A program made the translations under genes and the position numbers. 46,383 nucleotides of DNA from Acidimicrobiales bacterium (lineage in GTDB: Bacteria > Actinomycetota > Acidimicrobiia > Acidimicrobiales > VFJN01). The notes under the pieces are model-generated. The model was not told the DNA's origin and made no database searches. It saw only the letters and a list, made by a program, of their open reading frames with translations. The stretch is taken from the NCBI GenBank assembly GCA_030681555.1, contig JAUXRW010000045.1:1-46383 (forward strand). The letters run 5' to 3'. Below are positions 6,860 to 42,191 of this stretch, piece by piece (position 1 is the stretch's first letter; each line of letters opens with the position of its first letter).

Positions 6860-7332
6860 GGGGCGTTCAGCAGCGGCTTGACCGTCGCCCAGGCGTCGGA
6901 GGCGGGGCGCGTCAGCTCCAGGTCGGGGGCCTGGGGCGCCCCGTCGCTGGTCGGCGGGAGGAGGTACACGAGGTCCTCGGGCGTCACCATCCCGCGCTCC
7001 TCGGCAGCCGCCACGATGCGCTCCGGCGACTCCATCTCGGCCACCTCCTTGCGCAGCACCTGGTAGCGGGCCTGCTCGGCGCTCAGCTGGGCGTCCAGGC
7101 CGTCGAGGCGGACCTGGCCCTGCACGAGGATCGTGTGGGCGCCGGCCACGGCGAACAGCACGGCGAACACCAGCGCAGTGAGGACGGCGCCCATGGCCGG
7201 GCTGATCCGGCTCCGGATGCGCTCCTCCGGCGTGACGACCCGCAGGTGCTCGCGAGAGGGGGCGGAGCGGCGGCCGGGAACCGGCTGCGGGGCGGGTGCC
7301 AGGTGCTGCATCCAGGGTGCGGGGACGTTCAT
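6856..7332 (-). CDS. ftsL: FtsL-like bitopic septum protein
   Basis: 158-residue single-pass membrane protein between rsmH and ftsI, the usual place of ftsL. A 47-residue cytoplasmic tail is followed by a membrane helix at about 48-70 and a short extracytoplasmic coiled-coil region (about 72-102). The sequence SPERIVAAAEERGMVTPED resembles the conserved end of the FtsL/septum-initiator family. It is expected to scaffold FtsW-FtsI with an FtsB-like partner. The start ATG overlaps the rsmH stop and its stop overlaps the ftsI start. Primary sequence identity in this family is low, so the name rests on topology and position. Confidence 0.82.
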   Translation of the reverse strand: MNVPAPWMQHLAPAPQPVPGRRSAPSREHLRVVTPEERIRSRISPAMGAVLTALVFAVLFAVAGAHTILVQGQVRLDGLDAQLSAEQARYQVLRKEVAEMESPERIVAAAEERGMVTPEDLVYLLPPTSDGAPQAPDLELTRPASDAWATVKPLLNAP

Positions 7333-8339
7333 CGGGGCTCTTCCGTGGGGGTGTCGGTGGGGGTGTCGGTGGGCGTGCCGTCAGGCGTCCCGAGCTTCTC
7401 GGCGGCCCGGAGGTGGGCACTGGCCGCTCGGGGGTTGGCGTCCTGCTCGCCGGCGTCGGGCGTCCAGGCGCCCGCCTTGAGCAGCCGGACGGTGGGGCGG
7501 ACGTGGTCGGGCGGAGGCAGGTGGGCCGGGCCCCGCCAGCCACCCGTGGCGGCGTAGCGGAGACGGGACTTCACGATCCGGTCCTCGCCGGAGTGGTACG
7601 AGAGCACGGCGCAGCGCCCGTCCGGGGCGAGCACGTCCAGCGCAGCGTCGACGGAGTCGGCCAGGATGTCGAGCTCGGCGTTCACGGCGATGCGGATCGC
7701 CTGGAACGTGCGCTTGGCGGGATGGCCGCCGGTGCGGCGGGCCGCCGCCGGGATGGCCTCCCGCACGATCTCCGCGAGCTCGGTGGTGGTGCGGACCGGT
7801 CGTCGGGCGACGATGGTGCGGGCGATCCGGGCGGCGAAGCGCTCGTCGCCGTAGGTGCGGAGGATCCGGGCGAGGTCGCGTTCGTCCGTGTCGTTCACCA
7901 CCTCGGCCGCCGACCGCACCTGGTCGCGGTCCATCCGCATGTCGAGGGGCGCGTCGTGCCGGTAGCTGAAGCCGCGCTCGGGCCGATCGAGCTGGGGGGA
8001 GCTGACCCCCAGGTCGAAGAGCACGCCGCTCACCGGTGTCGTCGCAAGTCGTTCCACAGCAGATCGCAAGGCGTCGAACCGAACGTGCGCCAGCCGGGCC
8101 CGGTCGCCGTAGGGGGCGAGCCGTTCCGTGGCGGCAGCGAGGGCGTCTGCGTCCTGGTCGAGCCCGAGCACCCGGAGGTGCTCGTGGCGCTCGAGGATGG
8201 CGGCGGCGTGCCCCGCGCCACCGACGGTGGCGTCGACCACCCAACCGGGTGGCACCGGGGCGAAGAGCTCGACGATGCGATCCAGCAGGACCGGCTGGTG
8301 CCGGAACCCGGTGGCGTCGCCGTCGCCGGCACCGCTCAC
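7329..8339 (-). CDS. rsmH: RsmH, 16S rRNA m4C1402 methyltransferase
   Basis: SAM-dependent methyltransferase acting on the 30S P-site cytosine. 336 residues. GFRHQPVLLDRIV at the N-terminus, the SAM loop DATVGGAGHAAAI, GVLFDLGVSSPQLD and GFSYRHDAPLDMRMD are all typical, as is KRTFQAIRIAVN later. The C-terminus has a short Thr/Pro/Asp repeat encoded by a 12-bp tandem (about 7345-7378). The start is GTG at 8337-8339 with GGGAGG at 8346-8351 as ribosome binding site. That site and the first base of the start codon sit in one arm of a 16-bp inverted repeat, suggesting translational control. Confidence 0.95.
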   Translation of the reverse strand: MSGAGDGDATGFRHQPVLLDRIVELFAPVPPGWVVDATVGGAGHAAAILERHEHLRVLGLDQDADALAAATERLAPYGDRARLAHVRFDALRSAVERLATTPVSGVLFDLGVSSPQLDRPERGFSYRHDAPLDMRMDRDQVRSAAEVVNDTDERDLARILRTYGDERFAARIARTIVARRPVRTTTELAEIVREAIPAAARRTGGHPAKRTFQAIRIAVNAELDILADSVDAALDVLAPDGRCAVLSYHSGEDRIVKSRLRYAATGGWRGPAHLPPPDHVRPTVRLLKAGAWTPDAGEQDANPRAASAHLRAAEKLGTPDGTPTDTPTDTPTEEPR

Positions 8340-8448
8340 CTCCAGCCTCCCGGGACGCGGGCGCCCGCCGGGATGTCTCCCCGGAACGGGCTCGACGGAC
8401 TGCAGGCGGAGAAGGAGCGCTCCATCGTGCGGCCCGGGAGGCTGGAGG
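8339..8448 (-). promoter_or_regulatory. Long-stem hairpin over the rsmH ribosome binding site
   Basis: In the 228-bp gap between mraZ and rsmH, bases 8433-8448 and 8339-8354 are perfect 16-bp reverse complements. In the mRNA (minus strand) the upstream arm would pair with the arm that carries GGGAGG and the first base of the rsmH GTG start. The 78-nt loop has its own short stems, including the palindrome at 8357-8368. This would hide the ribosome binding site unless an alternative fold or a bound factor opens it. The pairing is seen directly; the control function is inferred. Confidence 0.6.
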
Positions 8449-8567
8449 CGGGCGGTGCTGCGCCTCGCACGTGCTCGGTTGTCGTCGCGCTCCCTTCGGG
8501 TTGGTTGTGTCCGAGGTCGGTTGGTCGGGGGATGCGGGTGGTGCGGAGGGCAGCGGCCACGGTCGGG

Positions 8568-9005
8568 TCAGAACCCGATCGTCTTGACCGCTTCGTTGAG
8601 CTCCTGGTCGTGGGCGTCGGACATCGACGCCCAGGTGGCGGCGTCCCAGATCTCGGCCCGCTTCATGCGGCCGGTGATGACCACCTCGGCGCCGAGGTCG
8701 GCGTACTGGCGGAGGCGGCTGGGGATGACGATCCGACCTTGCTGGTCGGGGACGATCTCGTGGGCATCGGCGATGAAGGCGCGCAAGGCGCCAGTGGTCA
8801 CGCGTCCGGCGTCGGCCTCCGCCTCCATCTGGTCGGCAGCGACGTCGAACCCCTCGATGGTCCAGAGGCCCAGGCAACCGTCCAGCTTGGCCAGCATCCC
8901 GCTCTCACCGAGCTGGGCGCGGATCTTCGACGGCAGGACCATGCGGCCCTTGTCGTCGAGCCCGTGCTCGTAGGTCCCGACGAAGCGGGTCCGCTGCTCT
9001 GCCAT
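8568..9005 (-). CDS. mraZ: MraZ, DNA-binding regulator of the division/wall cluster
   Basis: 145-residue protein with two SpoVT/AbrB-like swapped-hairpin halves. The first half has GTYEHGLDDKGRMVLPSKIR and the second VPDQQGRIVIPSRLRQYA. In E. coli and mollicutes MraZ forms a ring and binds short repeats upstream of its own gene. Start chosen at ATG 9003-9005 because MAEQRTRFVGTYEHG matches the family N-terminus, with a weak CGAGG ribosome site; the frame is open further upstream. It is the first gene of the operon, and a matching repeat operator lies about 80 bp upstream. Confidence 0.95.
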   Translation of the reverse strand: MAEQRTRFVGTYEHGLDDKGRMVLPSKIRAQLGESGMLAKLDGCLGLWTIEGFDVAADQMEAEADAGRVTTGALRAFIADAHEIVPDQQGRIVIPSRLRQYADLGAEVVITGRMKRAEIWDAATWASMSDAHDQELNEAVKTIGF

Positions 9006-29338: not shown

Positions 29339-29396
29339 GGCGGGGTCCGATCCGCTACTTGCCCGGGGGAGGGACGGCTGCAGATCGGACCCCGCC
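29339..29396. terminator. 14-bp perfect inverted repeat after glpK
   Basis: Bases 29339-29352 and 29383-29396 are perfect reverse complements with a 30-nt loop, starting 3 nt after the glpK stop. It is placed to end glpK transcription and also lies inside the 3' part of a small minus-strand frame, so it could serve both strands. Confidence 0.55.
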
Positions 29397-42153: not shown

Positions 42154-42191
42154 GCGGGGCCCGGCGCTCCCCCCGAAGCGCCGGGCCCCGC
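42154..42191 (-). terminator. Strong hairpin terminator after the di-iron gene
   Basis: A perfect 15-bp stem (42154-42168 with 42177-42191) and 8-nt loop, 40 bp beyond the stop at 42231. All but the closing pairs are G-C. No T-tract. Confidence 0.75.

Follow-up and report, generated by a model that had tools for sequence, protein, structure and literature searches.

An undescribed structured RNA between mraZ and rsmH in Acidimicrobiia, a candidate regulator of rsmH

The closest described counterpart of the RNA considered here is the mraW RNA motif (RF01746), which lies in the mraZ-rsmH gap of Actinobacteria, upstream of rsmH (also called mraW). This motif was described in Actinomycetales (Weinberg et al. 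2010, PMC2864571) and has been seen in C. glutamicum RNA-seq (PMC3890552). A second precedent is the UpsM RNA, or extended dcw leader, of Rhodobacter sphaeroides (PMC5089854), which is likewise a structured, lineage-specific RNA of the division and cell-wall cluster. UpsM lies upstream of mraZ and includes a Rho-independent terminator, whereas the Acidimicrobiia RNA occupies the mraZ-rsmH gap and has no terminator-like U-run. Leaders that occlude a ribosome binding site, such as translational riboswitches and ribosomal-protein leaders, provide a third point of comparison, in that the Shine-Dalgarno (SD) sequence and start codon are sequestered by an upstream strand beside a conserved core. The Acidimicrobiia RNA shares its position with RF01746 but differs from it in sequence, structure and lineage; two actinobacterial lineages hold different structured RNAs at one spot. 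The literature searched, whose coverage is incomplete, yielded no description of an rsmH leader RNA in Acidimicrobiia.

The window, a 46,383-nt stretch of DNA from an Acidimicrobiales bacterium (contig JAUXRW010000045.1), carries mraZ and rsmH on the minus strand, with 228 nt between the mraZ stop and the rsmH start. A first-pass annotation had drawn attention to an exact 16-bp inverted repeat in this gap, and the arms, at 8339-8354 and 8433-8448 with a 78-nt spacer, are indeed exact reverse complements. Nowhere else in the window do perfect 16-bp inverted arms lie 120 nt or less apart, and among random windows drawn from a first-order Markov model, which keeps the dinucleotide make-up, about 2% hold such a repeat. 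When mismatches are allowed the arms grow to 8329-8358 and 8429-8458 (30 nt, 90% complementarity), and the 16-bp repeat turns out to be the middle of a 25-bp helix, termed P1, in which the rsmH SD sequence and GTG start codon pair with sequence about 100 nt upstream. The downstream arm in the mRNA includes GGGAGG and the first base of the GTG, just as had been claimed, with the SD at 8346-8351 and the end of the arm at 8339. The leader fold (171 nt) is 4.6 standard deviations more stable than shuffled sequences, none of 200 shuffles matching its stability. The element, its parts and its flanking genes are as follows.

8330 to 8457, minus strand: whole rsmH leader RNA, 128 nt (match to covariance model R2, 92.7 bits, E 5.9e-18)
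8429 to 8454, minus strand: 5' strand of P1, the anti-SD side (25 pairs, of which 18 are changed on both sides among 22 members; includes arm 8433-8448)
8333 to 8358, minus strand: 3' strand of P1 with the SD and start codon (partner strand in P1; includes arm 8339-8354)
8346 to 8351, minus strand: rsmH SD sequence GGGAGG, all paired (sequence; in silico pairing probability)
8337 to 8339, minus strand: rsmH start codon GTG (sole in-frame ATG or GTG)
8394 to 8426, minus strand: P2 hairpin (covarying helices in the 22- and 81-member alignments)
8404 to 8411, minus strand: P2 loop core, CUCCGCCU here and CUCCGCCC in the family (family positions each 96-100% conserved; window and its genus divergent)
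8364 to 8390, minus strand: P3 hairpin, with loop AGACA at 8374-8378 (helix 4 of the 22-member alignment; missing from short forms in other orders)
7329 to 8339, minus strand: rsmH (mraW), 16S rRNA m4C1402 methyltransferase (ORF; Pfam PF01795 match at 7395-8306)
8568 to 9005, minus strand: mraZ, start likely at 9005 (ORF, open to 9101)

The GTG within the stem, spaced 6 nt from the SD, is taken as the rsmH start because the stretch from the mraZ stop to the conserved RsmH N-terminus offers no other ATG or GTG in frame. It had also been suggested that the 78-nt loop of the repeat could form a competing fold, but none was seen; the loop sequence consists instead of the two conserved hairpins, P2 and P3. 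Elsewhere in the window, at 29339-29396 and 42154-42191, closely spaced arms of 14-15 bp form further perfect inverted repeats.

Comparison with related genomes shows how far this structure extends. In three genomes of the same genus the gap is 178 nt long and holds this hairpin, with substitutions paired at many places, as where CTGCAGTTCCCCGGG replaces CTCCAGCCTCCCGGG and the opposite strand has changed to match. The gaps of distant relatives hold the same architecture, with an outer helix P1, a P2 hairpin with the loop CCCUACUCCGCCC, and a P3 hairpin with GGGGAGACAUCCC. By contrast, mraZ and rsmH overlap or lie no more than 73 nt apart in other genera of the same family and in three members of the order that are devoid of the RNA. 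In an alignment of 22 members, 94.5% of cells are paired and double-sided changes occur at 24 pairs, against 37-50% of cells paired when the structure is slid along the alignment, and on each of five measures no shuffle out of 500 does as well as the real alignment. A larger alignment of 81 members, about one per genus, gives 93.1% of cells paired, with double-sided changes at 37 of 42 pairs; its double-changed cells number 417 against a maximum of 150 in 200 shuffles, a control that ignores phylogeny, though the slid structures and a model built free of the window's genus are not weak in the same way. Both alignments thus contain the compensatory change that marks a conserved structured RNA, and at the level of sequence the earlier proposal that the division cluster could hold a new cis-regulatory RNA is supported, pairing having been kept across the class through massive compensatory change. 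On this evidence the 128-nt element is an undescribed structured RNA family whose outer stem is the inverted repeat.

Two covariance models were used to define the distribution of the family: R1 in scans of the whole order and of a phylum sample, and R2, built from 28 members with the window's genus excluded, which nonetheless detects the window copy (92.7 bits, E 5.9e-18). With R1 the RNA was found in at least 260 of 397 genomes and 142 of 203 genera of the window's order, which falls within Acidimicrobiia (a named isolate, Acidimicrobiia bacterium EGI L10123, has the RNA); with R2 it was found in at least 160 of 198 genomes and 85 of 103 genera of the class, these scans having been run with strict filters that make the counts lower bounds. 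Among those listed, the non-matching genomes of the class (18 are not listed) all come from the window's own order. Outside the class there were no matches in the 296-genome phylum sample, where all matches were from Acidimicrobiia. The position is constant, with rsmH directly downstream in the sense orientation in all 81 members and mraZ identified upstream in 78, and rsmH is the only gene that the RNA serves. The structure, conservation and location of the RNA are, in sum, demonstrated.

The length of the element differs by single bases between genera, and since many members from other orders are missing P3 (leaving an element of about 100 nt), the minimal form consists of P1 and the P2 loop. 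Loci of about 30% GC from genomes of about 1 Mb retain ACUCCGCCC; their P1 is now A+T-rich, yet pairing across the ATG persists. Because the RNA is kept in these members, the signal is not accounted for by GC bias. In six such loci from streamlined genomes (L219-L224, 900-1001 nt) the RNA has a 101-nt form that is far richer in G+C than its surroundings.

None of this corresponds to a catalogued family. Rfam 15 gave no match at gathering score in the window or in the member loci scanned (18, 7 and a further 14), and the sub-threshold matches were to unrelated families and were judged to be chance. Membership in RF01746 was considered and rejected: a permissive search (to E 10) of window positions 8250-8650 found no match, nor did scans of the member loci, and none of the genomes searched from the order and the class contained RF01746. 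In the reverse direction, R2 found no credible match in RF01746 loci. The hallmark loop of RF01746, ACUUCCCC, is present in its own loci and absent from the 81 element sequences, and no RF01746 stem was observed to enclose the rsmH start, as the window's RNA does. What the two have in common is location in the 5' leader of rsmH/mraW, which holds for all 81 members. The 5' strand of RF01746 (L046-L053) reads CUCYRSCCG, faintly like the CUCCGCCCG loop; by our estimate this likeness is likely chance in GC-rich sequence, and no weight is placed on it, though it could possibly reflect shared binding or distant ancestry.

The first-pass annotation had further proposed that the stem hides the rsmH ribosome binding site. 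For the window itself this stands as a prediction: in silico, the SD and start codon are 99.9% paired and would cost about 39 kcal/mol to open, the median cost of opening being about 35 kcal/mol. What does not stand is generality, since in about half of the genera translation of rsmH begins beyond P1, on its downstream side. An ATG, GTG or TTG lies at the expected place in P1 in 63 of the 81 members and is absent there in 18. In 42 of the 63 this codon opens a frame that runs into rsmH with no stop between (33 ATG, 8 GTG, 1 TTG), against one third expected by chance (6.7e-8, with relatedness ignored), and in the other 21 it is not in frame; some of the in-frame starts belong to other orders, and in 27 members the P1 start is the only ATG or GTG option. 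The remaining 39 of the 81, in which the P1 start is absent or out of frame, begin rsmH downstream, and occlusion of the ribosome binding site therefore cannot be the sole function of the RNA. In seven loci (L225-L231) P1 exceeds 20 bp and is near-perfect but has no rsmH start at the usual place (L225 and L227, for example), and these retain a G-rich P1 strand though it is not the rsmH SD. The window and 42 of the 81 members thus have the SD and start codon inside a helix that adjoins a conserved core, much as known occluding leaders do. The RNA departs from those leaders in having no known ligand or protein and no identified alternative fold, in the unusual stability of its outer helix, and in the half of the genera that have no start inside it.

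The most constant part of the RNA is the P2 loop, CUCCGCCC, each position of which is 96-100% conserved among the 81 members. No conserved intramolecular partner for it (GGGYGGRG) was found above control within 200 nt, with the exception of a 7-nt variant of a loop partner located downstream in 27 of 81 members, against 12 of 81 in the control. The 13-mer that includes the loop is found roughly once in each genome, in most cases at rsmH, and genome searches with it found no second locus bearing the same loop and hence no regulon. Given this near-single occurrence and the lack of a clear nearby partner, our best guess is that a single trans partner acts on rsmH alone, and we infer that the P2 loop is its binding site. 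The loop is slightly changed in the window's own genus (L001-L004), reading CUCCGCCU in the window and CUCCACCC in the sister genomes. Such an alteration could reflect a co-evolved partner or relaxed function, and the window copy, with its deviating loop, may respond differently or weakly.

Taken together, these features suggest that the element is a regulator, and that it is probably a cis-acting RNA for post-transcriptional control of rsmH, with the P2 loop read by a putative trans factor. A structured leader in the mraZ-rsmH transcript would control rsmH expression, the long and stable P1 presenting P2, whose loop, (A)CUCCGCCC, would be the recognition site for a putative trans factor or ligand, and P3 serving as an accessory hairpin. 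Co-transcription with mraZ is assumed here because a TANNNT-like -10 motif is not enriched just upstream of the element. In the window and about half of the genera, translation would be off by default because P1 contains the rsmH SD and start codon, and binding to the P2/P3 core, or opening or processing of P1, would then set the dose of RsmH. Such a stem could in turn affect the dose of the later dcw genes, as the first-pass annotation had suggested. Against this scheme, 35 kcal/mol is large for a reversible switch, and no alternative fold conserved across members was found. If the scheme is right, the RNA would be a ready-made orphan regulator, strongly supported and kept class-wide even in genomes of about 1 Mb and 30% GC. 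The gene that it serves is a near-universal ribosome methyltransferase gene whose regulation is poorly understood, and the RNA would connect the modification of ribosomes with the control of the division and cell-wall cluster. The exposed, near-invariant loop of 8-9 nt makes a search for the partner tractable.

Several other readings have been considered. That the duplex, at more than 20 bp and near-perfect, is a site for RNase III or another nuclease, which would split mraZ from rsmH and set mRNA ends, stability or exposure of the ribosome binding site, fits with its position between two co-oriented genes and with its persistence as a long, near-perfect helix in every order, even where rsmH starts outside it; a C-G/G-C step within P1 is also invariant or nearly so in the 81-member alignment. 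RNase III, however, makes little sequence demand, and processing alone leaves the near-invariant exposed P2 loop unexplained; we regard this reading as unlikely. A metabolite riboswitch, with the P2/P3 core as aptamer (for a cell-wall precursor or S-adenosylmethionine, for example) and P1 as expression platform, would account for the conserved core and for the ribosome binding site within P1 in half of the genera, the layout of a translational riboswitch; the gene under control would be one that heads the cell-wall and division cluster. The many other-order members that lack P3 would be left with one hairpin and a 9-nt conserved loop, a small aptamer, and there is no conserved alternative pairing, which makes a riboswitch rather unlikely. 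Several remaining mechanisms, taken as a group, are very improbable. A ribosome binding site concealed in a stem recalls an RNA thermometer, but the helix is 99.7% paired at 65 C in silico. An intrinsic terminator or attenuator would fit poorly with the occurrence of UUUU within 40 nt after P1 in only 2 of 81 members. An inverted repeat could be a DNA palindrome and thus an operator, but compensatory G-U and A-U changes of one orientation favour RNA over DNA. A translated leader peptide draws some support from within the genus, where the element is free of gaps and has an open frame ending on the rsmH GTG, but finds none across genera, where element lengths vary by single bases. A short ORF coupled to rsmH from the P1 start is likewise not claimed: suggestive ATGA overlaps occur in 7 members, and out-of-frame P1 ORFs overlap the rsmH start in 7 of 21 cases against 9 of 45 (20%) in control frames.

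The restriction of the RNA to a single gene raises the idea of feedback by RsmH itself, whether because the P2 loop imitates the 16S target around C1402 (ACACCGCCCGUC) and is bound by RsmH, or because translation from the occluded start hinges on C1402 methylation of the initiating 30S. The loop and 16S positions 1389-1411 do share 7 nt, CCGCCCG, including the target C. That said, the match is short and post hoc, being equaled by 3% of shuffled loops (p 0.03), and the shared stretch is not kept, reading CCGCCCA in members of about 30% GC and CCGCCUG or CCACCCG in the window's genus; an exact-pattern search found no 16S copy in the window's genome. Moreover, the substrate of RsmH is the assembled 30S rather than naked RNA. 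A parallel for the second version comes from B. subtilis, where translation of certain mRNA stem-loops is reported to need MraW methylation of C1402 (2026 preprint, PMC13317604), but those stem-loops are located within ORFs. Feedback of either kind is, in our judgment, quite unlikely. The stricter proposal that ribosome modification is read out directly by the leader, with rsmH translation controlled via the RNA by RsmH or by the C1402 methylation state that it creates, appears distinctly improbable; were it true, methylation of the decoding centre would be coupled by a feedback loop to expression at the start of the division gene cluster.

The preferred reading, of an rsmH leader recognized through its P2 loop, concerns Acidimicrobiia. 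In other Actinomycetota, eight loci (L176, L178, L186, L192, L193, L198, L199 and L203) have mraZ-rsmH gaps of about 140-250 nt with neither the marks of RF01746 nor the Acidimicrobiia loop, and these gaps may hold further unrecognised leaders.
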